Of a stretch of 64,000 nt of DNA, positions 49,970-64,000 are shown piece after piece (position 1 is the stretch's first letter; each line of letters opens with the position of its first letter). Position numbers and translations under genes: made by a program. Below the pieces are notes generated by a model. That model had not been told where the DNA came from. It saw only the letters and a program-made list of their open reading frames with translations, and did not search any database. Source of the DNA: Flavobacteriales bacterium (GTDB taxonomy: Bacteria; Bacteroidota; Bacteroidia; Flavobacteriales; UBA7430); the NCBI GenBank assembly GCA_022425195.1, contig JAKMFX010000011.1, positions 54,075 to 118,074 of the forward strand. Reading direction: 5' to 3'.

Positions 49970-51976
49970 ATGAATAGATTCTTCTCAATACTTATGCTCT
50001 TAGGTTTGGTGGCTGTCGCACAAACCGATACCCTAATAATTCAATCACACCATCAAGTAGATTTGACTTGGTATGGTGATTACGATAAAGAGGTCGTCTT
50101 TCCAAGTGAAAATTCTTTTGAAAAGGTGCTAATGGATTTTACCATGGGCTGTGCGAGTGGGGGCTACTCAGATTGGGATTATACCGTATCTGTATTTTTG
50201 ATGAGACCCACGGGCCATCTGGATTCCACTGTCTTGGTTTTAGATACGATGCTTCTCGAACCCTTAACAATAGATACGATTTGGGCGGTTAATGAGTCTT
50301 TTGAGAAATTTGAATTGGCTCGTTTAATAACACCTTACGGAGCCTATATGGATGCTTACATTTCAGGAGACCCAAATGATCTATATGATGATTCATGGAC
50401 GCATTCTTATATTTTTGATGTCACAGATTTTGCTCCATTATTAAGAGATACCTCATTGATTCGAGTTCATTACGGGGGTTGGTCTAGTGGTTTCAGTGCC
50501 ACTGTTGACTTTGATTTTATTGTAGGTGTTCCGCCTAGAGAGGTTTTGCATATTGAAAATATGTATCCTGTTGATGAGTATTCTTATCGAAGTTTGGCTG
50601 ATGATGAGAGTTTTCCGTCCCTAACAAGAACATTTGAGGAGCCAATACAAGGGCTTGCTCTTAAGTCATATATATCTGGTCATAAGCATGCTGGGCCTGA
50701 AAACTGTTGCGAGTGGGTTCCCAAAAACCATTCTTTAAGTATCAACTCTCAGGCAGTAAGCCAATGGAGTGTATGGAAGGATTGTGGGATGAATCCTATC
50801 TTCCCACAAGGAGGTACTTGGCCATTTGATCGTGCGGGTTGGTGTCCGGGCTCTGCGGTAGACCTCAAAGTGAAGGAGCTTACCAATTATATAAATGTTG
50901 ATGTTCCCCTCACCCTAGATTACAGCGTGGAACCTTACGAGAATAATGGAGAAGACACTGGAACGTTTATTGTGTCTAATACTTTATTCTCCTATGGGGC
51001 TATTAATTTTGAGAAAGACCTTGAAATTATAGACATTTTAAAACCTTCTCGGAAGGATGAATGGCGTAGGATGAATCCTATGTGTGCAGGTCCACTTATT
51101 GAAATTCGGAATCGGGGTTCAGAGAAAGTCTCTTCTATAAAAATACAATACGGCCTTAAAGGAGAGGACTTAACTACTTATGATTGGACTGGTGATTTGG
51201 AGTTTCTCGAAACAGCAAGGATTGAGTTGCCTGAGCCCAACTGGAAGGGTTTAAATGATGCTTCTGAATTTGTCGTTCACCTTATTTATGATGAAGATGA
51301 GTATTTACTCAACAATACATTGACTTCAGATTTTGATCTTACTGAGGTCTTGCCCAATGAATTTATAGTTTCATATAAAACACAGAACAACTTTGATTCA
51401 TCCAACAGAGCTGCTGAAAGTTCTTTAGAGGTGTACAATAGTGTCGGTGAACTTGTTTTTGATGATTTTTCCTTCTCGGAATCCAACACTTGGTATCACG
51501 ATACTTTGAGATTAAGTTCTGGTTGTTATTCCTTAGTATTTAGGGATTTAAGTCAAGATGGTATTAATGAGTATTGGTATTCTGGAGAGCCTTACTCAGC
51601 AGCTGGAATGTTACAAATTAGGAATCTGGAAGGGGTTTTGTTGAAAATATTTCCTGATGATTTTGGACAGGAAATCGATTATCAATTTACCATAAATCCT
51701 TCTCTCCACACAGGTGTGCTTGATACGATAGGATTGAATCTCTATCCAAATCCTACGAAAGATTTCTTGCATCTGAATATTTTCTTGGGGCATCCACAAA
51801 ATCTTGAGGTCAGCATTATAAATGCCAAGGGGTATGAAGTCACTCGTTTTCAAAGAACAAATTTCACAGTAGGAACCGAATTTGTAGACACAAAAAATAT
51901 GTCGCCAGGTATTTATTACTGCAGTATTTTTGGCGACTGGGGAGTCACAACAAAGAGGTTTGTTGTGACGGACTAA
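49970..51976 (+). CDS. Secreted PNGase F-like glycoprotein/peptide-N-glycosidase domain protein with T9SS type A sorting domain
   Basis: Signal peptide; 'MDFTMGCASGGYSDWDYTVSVFLM' and 'ISGHKHAGPENCCEWVPKNHSLSINSQAV' resemble PNGase F N/C domains; C-terminal 'GLNLYPNPTKDFLHLNIF...GIYYCSIFGDWGVTTKRFVV'. Confidence 0.82.
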   Translation: MNRFFSILMLLGLVAVAQTDTLIIQSHHQVDLTWYGDYDKEVVFPSENSFEKVLMDFTMGCASGGYSDWDYTVSVFLMRPTGHLDSTVLVLDTMLLEPLTIDTIWAVNESFEKFELARLITPYGAYMDAYISGDPNDLYDDSWTHSYIFDVTDFAPLLRDTSLIRVHYGGWSSGFSATVDFDFIVGVPPREVLHIENMYPVDEYSYRSLADDESFPSLTRTFEEPIQGLALKSYISGHKHAGPENCCEWVPKNHSLSINSQAVSQWSVWKDCGMNPIFPQGGTWPFDRAGWCPGSAVDLKVKELTNYINVDVPLTLDYSVEPYENNGEDTGTFIVSNTLFSYGAINFEKDLEIIDILKPSRKDEWRRMNPMCAGPLIEIRNRGSEKVSSIKIQYGLKGEDLTTYDWTGDLEFLETARIELPEPNWKGLNDASEFVVHLIYDEDEYLLNNTLTSDFDLTEVLPNEFIVSYKTQNNFDSSNRAAESSLEVYNSVGELVFDDFSFSESNTWYHDTLRLSSGCYSLVFRDLSQDGINEYWYSGEPYSAAGMLQIRNLEGVLLKIFPDDFGQEIDYQFTINPSLHTGVLDTIGLNLYPNPTKDFLHLNIFLGHPQNLEVSIINAKGYEVTRFQRTNFTVGTEFVDTKNMSPGIYYCSIFGDWGVTTKRFVVTD

Positions 51977-59666: not shown

Positions 59667-60182
59667 ATGAAAAATATGAATATTCTATTTTCTGTATTCC
59701 TGTGTCTTTATACTTTTTCTCTTTTGGGGCAAAACGCCTTAGACAACTCATTAATTCTAAGGTCGACTTTTAGCACTTCAACACTTACTTCGGGAGAGAA
59801 CCGTAAATTCATTCATCAACAAAGTTCAGGTCAATCTGGACTTACTGGAACTTATGCTTCGGGTGGTTATCTATTGAGTCAAGGATTTGTTCAATCCAAT
59901 GTATGGGAATTGATGACTGGCCTCAGCGAGATTTTGGACTTGAAAGTACAAATTTTCCCCAACCCATTTGTCAGTGAAGTTCAGGTAAAACTCACAGAAG
60001 CAACAAACTCTGATGTTGAGCTCATCTTATTTAGTCCTTTAGGAAAGGAGTTGGAGCGATATAAGTTTAAAGATAACGAAAAAATACAGATTTCTTTGGC
60101 GCATTTACCCACTGCAAATTATTTCATCAAAATAGCGACGAATAGCAAACAAGTGATACATCCAATCATAAAGATTAAATAA
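59667..60182 (+). CDS. Small secreted protein with T9SS type A sorting domain
   Basis: Signal peptide 'MNILFSVFLCLYTFSLLGQ'; 'SSGQSGLTGTYASGGYLLSQGFVQSN'; 'DLKVQIFPNPFVSEVQVKL...LPTANYFIKIATNSKQVIHPIIKIK'. Confidence 0.82.
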   Translation: MKNMNILFSVFLCLYTFSLLGQNALDNSLILRSTFSTSTLTSGENRKFIHQQSSGQSGLTGTYASGGYLLSQGFVQSNVWELMTGLSEILDLKVQIFPNPFVSEVQVKLTEATNSDVELILFSPLGKELERYKFKDNEKIQISLAHLPTANYFIKIATNSKQVIHPIIKIK

Positions 60183-60213: not shown

Positions 60214-61353
60214 ATGAGAAAACCATTTCGAATTTTCGTTCTCAGTATATTTTGTTCCTTGACCACAATCAGTGCGCAAAGTTTTTACACTGAATTTGGA
60301 ATCAATGCCTTAACCAAGATGGACTATGAAAGTTTTGTGGCCATAACGTATGATTCTGAACAAACGTTTTCACCACAAAAGCATTTTGAACTTGGATGTA
60401 AGTACCCTATTTCCAATCGTGTGAATATCACTTTGGGCTTTTCCAGTAATGCATATCATTTCAGCAACCGTCTAAATTTGGGTAAGAATAAATCCTTAGA
60501 CGCAGAGATATTTACAAATTCTCTATTTGAACTCGATTACTTAGGTAGCAATTTGGGTATAGAATTGAACTTTTCTCAAACCGCAGATTGGCGATTTTAC
60601 GGTTCTGGTAAAATGTCCTTTAATCAGTTGATTCGCGGAAAGAGAACCGACCAGGTGATTAATGTATCCGACACGTACTTTTCAAATTTAAACCCCAATT
60701 TACTGCAAGAAGACCATTTTCAGAAGTTGTGGTGTAATCTTCAACTTGGATTTGGACTGTCCTACCGCGTTAACACGTTTATGGATATATATACACAGTA
60801 TAATTTCAACCAGACCCTTACCTCTGTTGAAACTGAAAAAGTAAATTATGGTTTTAGTGCTCACGATCTTTCAGTAGGATTGCTTTTTAATATTTCAAAA
60901 CAAGAACAGAGTCCTTTAGATGTGCATCTAACCTCAGATCTTCCTGATCCTACTTTGCCTATTCTCAGTCCCGACTTAAATCATTTTGCGCTTGATTTAA
61001 GTTTTAAAGAACCTACAAATACGATTGATTCTTCGAGATTAAAAATATTTTTCCCACCCAGTTCTTCAGCCTTCTACGAAAATCAAACCGAATCACTTGA
61101 GGGACTTTCAAGTAGGCTATTATATAGCCCCTCTCTTAGGTATTATATCTTAGGTTATTTCACAAATTTCACCCACAAAAATATTTGTATTGCAAGACTT
61201 AAATCGGTGTTAGATTTCTTGTTAAAAAAAGGGGTTCAACGCTCACAATTGGTAGTGGCCTATATCAATGAAGATTTAGATGATCAAAATGAAACGGTAT
61301 ACAATAGAAGAATTGAATTAATCCAAATGAATCCAATCAATCCAAATGAATAA
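60214..61353 (+). CDS. Outer-membrane beta-barrel protein with degenerate OmpA-like C-terminal domain
   Basis: Signal peptide; amphipathic strands to about residue 235; C-term 'YYILGYFTNFTHKNICIARLKSVLDFLLKKGVQRSQLVVAYINEDLDDQNETVYNRRIELIQM'. Confidence 0.65.
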   Translation: MRKPFRIFVLSIFCSLTTISAQSFYTEFGINALTKMDYESFVAITYDSEQTFSPQKHFELGCKYPISNRVNITLGFSSNAYHFSNRLNLGKNKSLDAEIFTNSLFELDYLGSNLGIELNFSQTADWRFYGSGKMSFNQLIRGKRTDQVINVSDTYFSNLNPNLLQEDHFQKLWCNLQLGFGLSYRVNTFMDIYTQYNFNQTLTSVETEKVNYGFSAHDLSVGLLFNISKQEQSPLDVHLTSDLPDPTLPILSPDLNHFALDLSFKEPTNTIDSSRLKIFFPPSSSAFYENQTESLEGLSSRLLYSPSLRYYILGYFTNFTHKNICIARLKSVLDFLLKKGVQRSQLVVAYINEDLDDQNETVYNRRIELIQMNPINPNE

Positions 61354-61357
61354 TGTT

Positions 61358-64000
61358 ATGAAAAATACAGACAAAAAAACAATGTTCCTATTAATGCTAT
61401 TCTTTTGCGGTAGTTTAGGAGCAATTGCACAAACCTTAGGGTTTAATTATCAAGCCATTATCAAATCAGACCCTTCCAATAGTTTTGAATTCTATGGAGA
61501 AACGGTAAGCCTAAATTTTTTCGCCAGTAGTGATGTCGCTCTGCGATTCTCAGTTCTCAATGCATCGGGGGAAAAAGAATATATAGAAGAACATTTCACT
61601 ACAACAAACGCTCTAGGTGAAGTGAATCTAACGGTAGGTGCTGGAATTCCATCCCAAGGAGATTTTAGCGATATTGTTTGGAATGGGACCAAGAAACAAC
61701 TGTCTGTAGAAATCGACTATGCGGCAAATGGATCATCCTATCAATATAGCAATACACAAGATCTTCTATATCTGCCACATCCCAACAATTCATTAAATAT
61801 CGGACTGTTTTCGGATATTAAAGATTCTATCTCTGTCATACAGACGAATTTGGCTAAAAATCAGACGGAAAGTGTCGCAGCAGATTTAGCTTTGCAAAAC
61901 ACCATTGATATTCTTCGAGTCGATGTTTCGGCGAACTCCAATAAAATAGGGGTCACTACTGAGCAGTCAGAAACCATCACATCGAATGCTACGGCACTTA
62001 GTGACTTGGAAACTACCGTAAATCAAAATAAAACCATATCCGAAACCGCAGACGCTACCCTTCAGGGAACTATTGATGGGCTCGGCACTGCGGTAAGCGG
62101 CAACAAGGCGGCCCATGAATTGGCATTGACAGATTTGGAGACTACAATAGGTCAAAACAAAACCGCATCCGAAACTACAGACGCTAGCCTTCAGGGAACT
62201 ATTGATGGGCTCAGCACTACGGTAATCGCCAACAAGGCGGCCCATGAATTGGCATTGACAGATTTGGAGACCACAATAGGTCAAAACAAAACCGCATCCG
62301 AAAGCGCAGACGCTACCCTTCAGGGAACTATTGATGGGCTTAGCACTACGGTAATCGCCAACAAGACGGCTCATGAATTGGCATTGACAGATTTGGAGAC
62401 TACAATAGGTCAAAACAAAACTGCATCCGAAAGTGCAGACGCTAACTTTCAGGGAACTATTGATGGGCTCGGCACTGCGGTAAGCGCCAACAAGGCGGCC
62501 CATGAATTGGCATTGATAGATTTGAATACCCAGGTAGAGGGCAATGAAAATGAACTCAAGACCACTGTCAAATCCGTAAATGGATCAAATCCGGATATGA
62601 GTGGAAATGTAGTTGTATCCTTAGCTGCAGTAAATACGGGAACACTTGCCGCCAAACCATTGACCACAAATGCTCAAGAAAAAGGAGACATGTATATTGT
62701 TTCTGGTGATTCATTTGAAAACAATGGTCGAACCTTTATTAGTGACGGGGAAGAATGGCGTGAAATCACATCGAATACAGCTGCTACAGACAATAGATAT
62801 GTGAATCAAAGTGGTGATGAAATGCAGGGTAATCTGAATTTAGGGATGAATGACATCGTCAATGTAAATGATATAACTGCCGTCACTTTAAATGGTAATT
62901 TGACCGGTAATGTAACTGCAACAAGCGTATTGGCTGATGGCGTAGTAGCCACCACTCAAAACCCCAACAATAATTCTACCAAAGTCGCTACCACAGAATA
63001 CGTAGATCAAGCAGACCATGGTTTGCAAAGTACTATTGATGTATTAAATAATACGGTATCGGATCACAAGTTAGCGCACGAAACGGCATTGACGGATTTA
63101 AATACCAAAGTAGATGGCAATACCAATGAACTCAATACCACTGTTAAAGTTGTAAATGGGGTATTCCCAGATGTTGACGGTAAAGTGGTGATATCTCTTA
63201 CTGGTGTGGAAACAGGAACATTAAATGGAAGACCAATTTCAGTACCTAAAGAAGGGGATATGTATGTTGTTTCTAATGATACGGATGGAGATAATAATGG
63301 AAGAACTTTCATTAGTGATGGCAATACCTGGCATGAAATTACTTCAAATACGAATGCAACTGATAGTAGGTATTTGAACCTTAGTGGTGATCAAATGCTA
63401 GGAACTCTTGATATGGGTAGTCAAAACATCACCAATCCTGGGATGATAGATGGCAGGGATGTTGCTGCAGACGGTACCATGCTGGATGCCATCCAAACCG
63501 GATCGGGATTGGCTACAGATGGAGCTTACACTGTAAACATTGGAACCCACTACCTTGATGCAGCAGGATCACTTGATGATGCTGACGATAGGTTGGATAC
63601 ACAGATAAAAACAAATGCTGATGCCATTACAACAAACACCTCTGGAGTAGCCAATAATGCATCAGACATTGCAACGAATGTATCAGCAATTGCATTAAAC
63701 ACAGATAAAACAGCCATTACTACTGAACAAGCAACAGCCATAACAACGAACACTTCTGGAGTATCTACGAATGCAAGTGCAATCGCTGGGATTCAAACCG
63801 ATTTAACCTCGGTAGACAACCAAGCTTTGAGCTTGGAGGGAAACACCCTTAGTTTGGATGATGGAGGAAGTGTAGATGTAAGTGCAGCCACTGCAGTAGC
63901 AACGAATACAGCCGCCATTACAGCGAACACCTCTGGAGTGGCCGATAATGCATCAGACATTGCAACGAATGCCACAGCCATTGCATTAAACACAGATAAA
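61358..64000 (+). CDS. Repeat-rich secreted fibre/adhesin-like protein, 3' truncated by window (not in the supplied ORF track)
   Basis: Manual translation from ATG 61358 stays open to the window end: 'MKNTDKKTMFLLMLFFCGSLGAIAQTLGFNYQAIIKSDPS...'; tail-fibre-like 'NSTKVATTEYVDQA', 'SGDQMLGTLDMGSQNITN'; coiled-coil-like 'ITTNTSGVANNASDIATNVSAIALNTDK'. Confidence 0.85.
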   Translation, partial: MKNTDKKTMFLLMLFFCGSLGAIAQTLGFNYQAIIKSDPSNSFEFYGETVSLNFFASSDVALRFSVLNASGEKEYIEEHFTTTNALGEVNLTVGAGIPSQGDFSDIVWNGTKKQLSVEIDYAANGSSYQYSNTQDLLYLPHPNNSLNIGLFSDIKDSISVIQTNLAKNQTESVAADLALQNTIDILRVDVSANSNKIGVTTEQSETITSNATALSDLETTVNQNKTISETADATLQGTIDGLGTAVSGNKAAHELALTDLETTIGQNKTASETTDASLQGTIDGLSTTVIANKAAHELALTDLETTIGQNKTASESADATLQGTIDGLSTTVIANKTAHELALTDLETTIGQNKTASESADANFQGTIDGLGTAVSANKAAHELALIDLNTQVEGNENELKTTVKSVNGSNPDMSGNVVVSLAAVNTGTLAAKPLTTNAQEKGDMYIVSGDSFENNGRTFISDGEEWREITSNTAATDNRYVNQSGDEMQGNLNLGMNDIVNVNDITAVTLNGNLTGNVTATSVLADGVVATTQNPNNNSTKVATTEYVDQADHGLQSTIDVLNNTVSDHKLAHETALTDLNTKVDGNTNELNTTVKVVNGVFPDVDGKVVISLTGVETGTLNGRPISVPKEGDMYVVSNDTDGDNNGRTFISDGNTWHEITSNTNATDSRYLNLSGDQMLGTLDMGSQNITNPGMIDGRDVAADGTMLDAIQTGSGLATDGAYTVNIGTHYLDAAGSLDDADDRLDTQIKTNADAITTNTSGVANNASDIATNVSAIALNTDKTAITTEQATAITTNTSGVSTNASAIAGIQTDLTSVDNQALSLEGNTLSLDDGGSVDVSAATAVATNTAAITANTSGVADNASDIATNATAIALNTDK
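61985..62515 (+). repeat. 129-bp (43-aa) in-frame tandem repeats, about four units
   Basis: 'catgaattggcattga(c/t)agatttg' recurs at 62114, 62243, 62372 and 62501, exactly 129 bp apart; a more divergent unit precedes (61985-62113). Confidence 0.95.
62519..63400 (+). repeat. Divergent internal module duplication (offset 576 bp) within the fibre gene
   Basis: 'DLNTQVEGNENELKTTVKSVNG...GDMYIVSGDS..NNGRTFISDGEEWREITSNTAATDNRYVNQSGDEMQGNLNLG' versus 'DLNTKVDGNTNELNTTVKVVNG...GDMYVVSNDT..NNGRTFISDGNTWHEITSNTNATDSRYLNLSGDQMLGTLDMG'. Confidence 0.85.

Follow-up and report, generated by a model that had tools for sequence, protein, structure and literature searches.

A secreted fibre family of Bacteroidota related to Bdellovibrio MAT proteins and linked to a small T9SS-sorted partner gene

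We analysed a 64,000-nucleotide stretch of a Flavobacteriales genome (contig JAKMFX010000011.1, positions 54,075 to 118,074; hereafter the window) and, with somewhat better than even confidence, read the open reading frame at its end as a chimeric surface fibre of the mosaic adhesive trimer (MAT) type, whose head would be docked by the products of its gene cassette while a helical stalk points outward and carries a lectin-like tip. MAT-type fibres are already known; what is new here is the neighbourhood of the head gene, that is, an upstream partner sorted by the type IX secretion system (T9SS). A preliminary description of the window missed this conserved cassette and had proposed a surface adhesin that acquired tail-fibre architecture. 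The protein is indeed chromosomal, secreted and of fibre type on a common Bacteroidota head, but instead of being a one-off acquisition it belongs to a widespread chimeric family related to the Bdellovibrio MAT proteins.

Structure of the fibre gene

As described earlier, the fibre frame runs to the end of the window without a stop. The window end coincides with the end of the contig (118,074 bases), and the stop is missing because the assembly (1.77 Mb, 98.98% complete, 48 contigs) breaks there, inside a repeat array; the 3' part of the gene is absent from its own assembly. The signal peptide and 'FNYQA'-type head reported from the window are both present, with Q25, the first residue after the signal peptide, invariant in the 15 heads aligned. 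All of the motifs previously quoted were also located, namely NNSTKVATTEYVDQA, NQALSLEGNTLSLDDGGSVDVS (aa 821–842) and two of the form SGD(E/Q)M.G.L..G...I (within aa 483–500 and 674–691). A 178-aa frame on the minus strand (61967–62503) is a shadow of the 129-bp repeats and not a likely gene.

Table 1 Features of the fibre gene and its upstream neighbours in the window.
Feature	Position	Strand	Basis or remark
Partner gene, encoding a secreted protein of 171 aa: mature N segment of ~70 residues, then type A T9SS sorting domain (aa 96–165)	59667..60182	+	PF18962 E 2.9e-9, TIGR04183 E 3.2e-9, each above its cut-off
Outer-membrane beta-barrel protein, C-terminal region OmpA-like but degenerate	60214..61353	+	PF13568 28.1 bits, just over cut-off
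Alternative fibre start, in-frame ATG	61346	+	12 bases upstream of 61358; also possible
Fibre gene	61358..64000	+	3' end cut by contig end; signal peptide, 'FNYQA' head and repetitive stalk
Signal peptide, aa 1–24 (..AIA/Q)	61358..61429	+	Judged by eye from sequence; next residue at 61430
Head domain, aa 25–148, MAT-N-related, predicted beta-rich	61430..61801	+	Profile comparison and AF2
Long helix after head, aa 152–194	61811..61939	+	AF2 model residues 128–170; hydrophobic period 3.5
Helical repeats in tandem, 3.9 copies of a 129-bp (43-aa) unit	62023..62524	+	Repeat detection; hydrophobic period 3.6
Tail-fibre-like motif NQSGDEMQGNLNLGMNDI, aa 483–500	62804..62857	+	Sequence; weak phage matches
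Tail-fibre-like motif NNSTKVATTEYVDQA, aa 538–552	62969..63013	+	Sequence; weak phage matches
Second copy of SGD(E/Q)M-type motif, NLSGDQMLGTLDMGSQNI, aa 674–691	63377..63430	+	Sequence
Heptad segment rich in [IVL]xxN[TAS], aa 750–881, to contig end	63605..64000	+	Motif counts; 96% identical continuation in G002 C70

Helical segments of the stalk are marked by hydrophobic periods near 3.5–3.6, and the pattern [IVL]xxNT is found 12 times in the whole window protein where 2.5 would be expected; 2000 local shuffles gave no more than 8. Asn-Thr heptads are typical of trimeric coiled coils in autotransporter adhesins, and on this basis we read the stalk as a trimeric coiled coil: the heptad segment probably forms one, while the helix following the head in the predicted structure is probably a coiled-coil neck. 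For the window fibre it is the motifs that point to a trimer; no mention of the IxxNTxx motif was found in the open-access literature searched. The likeness to tail fibres claimed from the window holds for its motifs, which gave weak phage matches, but does not go beyond the motif level in this stretch, as the whole window protein had no significant match to Pfam, PHROGs, NCBIfam or phage sequences.

A genome of the same genus (G002, a sister species) carries the fibre head and stalk at 85–90% identity on contig C31, and since the protein is kept at this identity and its head family recurs across the phylum, the fibre is more than a chance observation. C31 breaks in the same kind of repeat as the window contig; it shares with contig C70 a correctly oriented overlap of exactly 115 bases, and joined together the two encode a fibre of about 1,545 aa. 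The start of the C70 product matches the final stretch of the window protein at 96% identity. The sister's distal half matches PHROG families (E 2.4e-8 and 1e-7) and its C-terminus is an Lcl_C domain (PF07603, E 1.4e-10, to residue 768 of 770), which also matches a solved structure deposited as HbP1 (E 2e-6). A T9SS sorting domain, S74 or another anchor had been suggested for the C-terminus. The window contig ends before it, and in the sister the Lcl_C domain takes that place, with neither S74 (Pfam) nor a T9SS C-terminal sorting domain present; Lcl_C at the C-terminus, the mark of Lcl-type adhesins, is thus found in the sister species only. Pfam gave no match to a YadA-type C-terminal membrane anchor, either in the C-terminal half of the sister fibre or in any family matched by the 75 tips of relatives considered below; no type B sorting domain was found in the sister fibre or in those same families, and collagen had no Pfam match in the window or sister fibre.

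Head domain family

A profile built from 15 heads recovered the family in 77 of the 392 Bacteroidota genomes sampled, and in 46 of the 179 genera. The head family is missing from Pfam, and for this reason many of its fibres probably carry annotations derived from their tips alone, such as tail fibre or S74 protein. The only curated family recurring among the heads was NCBIfam NF053851, the Bdellovibrio MAT N domain, which matched 9 of the 15 at E ≤ 0.01 (best 1.4e-12), the matches listed all lying below its 60-bit cut-off. Searched directly, NF053851 had matches in 80 of 296 genomes, none over the cut-off, and in 0 of 14 control genomes; the best relative scored 47.7–48.6 bits against the required 60 and by score falls short of MAT membership. 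The window's own head had no direct NF053851 match, so its link to MAT runs via the family profile. These profile comparisons, though they stay under the curated threshold, relate the Bacteroidota head family to the N domain of Bdellovibrio MAT fibres.

The window protein also has, right after its signal peptide, a beta-rich domain of the ~130-residue kind described for MAT proteins (aa 25–148, seven predicted strands). An AF2 model of the head, of moderate quality (pLDDT 69), places a 43-residue helix after seven strands. Foldseek comparison of this model with PDB and viral models returned nothing at E ≤ 1e-3, the head profile found no match in a PDB sequence search, and the window head had no PHROG match.

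A second head protein (428 aa) is encoded in the window's own genome (L071:5144-6430; G000 C38:104143-105429), with a 764-aa gene upstream that weakly matches the T9SS sorting domain. A further same-genus head protein, with Cys-rich repeats (CAGVPNGTSWESDCGCVAQGNSGDDCDD), is cut by the contig end in both genomes where it was seen (L024:3-1772 in G002 C70; L025:1-1701 in G001 C50). At two other loci (L110 in G277 and L130 in G418) several head-fibre genes stand in tandem or close together, many of them ending in S74-like coiled coils.

Partner gene and linkage

The partner gene upstream of the window fibre encodes a protein with the attributes of T9SS type A cargo, a signal peptide combined with over-threshold TIGR04183 and PF18962 matches. 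AF2 gave its N segment no confident fold, which may reflect folding on binding, though a poor prediction would fit as well. In the barrel between partner and fibre, the OmpA match has E 0.24 in the window and 2.3e-4 in G002, and is strong in G043. Further copies of the same three-gene set occur in same-genus genomes. The source genome has T9SS genes: PorV scores 493 bits, 29 type A cargo domains pass the cut-off, and SprA, the T9SS translocon, lies in two pieces (G000 C37:33-4307 and C16:2-2866), each at the end of a different contig, which reflects assembly fragmentation and not gene loss. Elsewhere in the window (49970–51976) a T9SS sorting domain is also carried by a secreted protein of 668 aa, whose N-terminal part may resemble PNGase F-like domains.

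We assessed linkage in 60 loci fetched from the phylum-wide head search, in which ORF calling gave 86 head genes. Using a sorting-domain HMM built from small proteins of these same loci, we found a sorting-domain protein upstream of 66 of the 86 head genes (52 directly, 14 one gene further) compared with 14 of 578 other ORFs, and Pfam independently placed PF18962 in 59 of 92 upstream neighbours. The upstream partner is usually ~160 aa, and in the 14 one-gene-removed cases the gene in between encodes a barrel or another fibre in tandem, or is a small ORF. Counted by genome the link is seen in 44 of 53, and by family in 13 of 17 (Fisher p 1e-58, relatedness ignored); it is lacking in the other 4 families, and the partner is missing from the expected place at 20 of the 86 head genes, some of which are tandem copies or cut loci. 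Among relatives of one Chryseobacterium fibre used as query, the partner lies 7–15 nt upstream in 44 of 45 named loci of the Chryseobacterium group. Only 2 of the 86 fibres match the local sorting-domain HMM themselves.

Distances between heads were correlated with distances between partner N segments, the Mantel coefficient being 0.55 where permutations gave at most 0.21. When partners were shuffled within genomes to control for species, the observed agreement of 130 of 207 was reached in 13 of 2000 shuffles, whose mean was 94.5. Linked genes that are inherited together would co-vary in this way as well.

Tip diversity

The 75 tips comprised S74 (16), Lcl_C (4), collagen (3) and Recep_L (2), with C1q, Collar, Gp10_C, Peptidase_G2 and DUF7452 found once each. 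Variable adhesive tips on one conserved head, which characterize MAT fibres, are therefore present in the family, the window gene's own tip being unassembled. Within the Chryseobacterium group, loci L179-L185 have heads 55–86% identical to that of the query fibre but other stalks and tips than L141-L178, and keep the partner. Differing tips on similar Chryseobacterium heads represent natural tip exchange.

Anchoring of the fibre

For other proteins it is established that type A cargo leaves the cell through the T9SS and can become attached to its surface. In our favoured reading of the window locus, the 171-aa partner would likewise cross the outer membrane by the T9SS and be fixed there, and, alone or together with the barrel and its OmpA-like region, would dock the fibre head. 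The beta-rich head would then stay at the cell surface, the helical stalk with its phage-type modules would project outward, and the C-terminal lectin-like tip, Lcl_C in the sister species, would bind a ligand, probably a glycan; the small partner may even carry the fibre out with itself. Trimerisation, surface exposure, head-partner binding, co-export and ligand binding are what we infer for this arrangement. Extended across Bacteroidota, MAT-type fibres devoid of a T9SS signal would depend for export and fixation on a small T9SS type A adaptor of their own, the product of the gene just upstream. Tips would be freely exchanged in this two-protein route, and the adaptor's N segment would be the ligand of the head; we offer this extension tentatively, as possible rather than probable.

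The main rival explanation is that the barrel alone anchors or shuttles the fibre, by analogy with PorP/SprF for type B T9SS adhesins or TpgA for trimeric autotransporters, the small T9SS protein being linked genetically but physically separate. At the window locus, as in several further families, a barrel lies directly upstream of the fibre, and OmpA domains are present in some of these cases; the TpgA model for an OmpA partner matches the G043 barrel at 4e-14, and PorP/SprF-like barrels are known to bind and anchor type B adhesins, as in SprB-SprF (PMC9143113, PMC12618676). However, at most loci the small T9SS protein adjoins the fibre with no barrel between them, and the missing type B sorting domain in the sister fibre and in the families matching tips also speaks against this explanation, which we regard as rather unlikely.

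Less likely still, the neighbours might not anchor the fibre at all: it could be released or held by another surface component, with head and stalk otherwise employed and the linkage reflecting shared regulation. The incomplete linkage and the lack of a significant Foldseek match for the head would fit this, whereas the tight linkage across 13 families and the persistence of head-partner co-variation under species control would not. A prophage or decayed phage tail fibre is highly improbable and was rejected: phage-type motifs in the stalk and the sister's PHROG matches favour it, but the protein has a signal peptide and a head without PHROG match, neighbouring genes are the same in G001, no relative was found in 50,697 phage records or viral contigs, and no phage structural gene occurs among neighbouring ORFs, in line with the preliminary description.

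Relation to known systems

Bdellovibrio, a predatory bacterium, uses MAT fibres to grip prey (Caulton et al. 2024, PMC10769870). MAT fibres of Bdellovibrio bacteriovorus share with the Bacteroidota fibres a signal peptide, an N domain of ~130 beta-rich residues, a long fibre and exchangeable tips, including S74, C1q/TNF-like and C-type-lectin-like folds (PMC10769870). The Bacteroidota fibres differ in the sub-threshold NF053851 matches of their heads, in a stalk predicted to combine coiled coil and phage modules, and in being tied to T9SS partner genes in a different phylum, with no evidence of predation. The Legionella collagen-like adhesin Lcl, which is trimeric and binds sulphated glycosaminoglycans (PMC11162425), likewise ends a stalked protein in Lcl_C (DUF1566), but head and stalk of the window-type fibre are unrelated to it and lack collagen repeats. 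As in SprB-SprF, a large surface adhesin is genetically linked to an outer-membrane barrel, yet here no type B sorting domain was found, the partner is type A cargo and the gene order is another. Trimeric autotransporter adhesins of the YadA group with TpgA resemble the family in Asn-containing stalk heptads and in an OmpA-type partner gene at some loci, whereas the sister fibre is without a YadA-type C-terminal anchor and its conserved domain is N-terminal. Phage tail fibres share short stalk motifs, and in some relatives the C-terminus is an S74 or phage collar domain, but the window fibre is chromosomal and secreted and its head was absent from the phages searched.

In the open-access literature searched, we found no report tying MAT-type fibres to Bacteroidota or to the T9SS. 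The surface partner of the MAT head was unknown according to Caulton et al. (PMC10769870), and the T9SS partners are candidates for its dock. MAT-type heads are common in Bacteroidota and occur there with a conserved partner gene; because this gene is found in organisms that can be grown, the question of how MAT-type fibres are anchored becomes directly testable.
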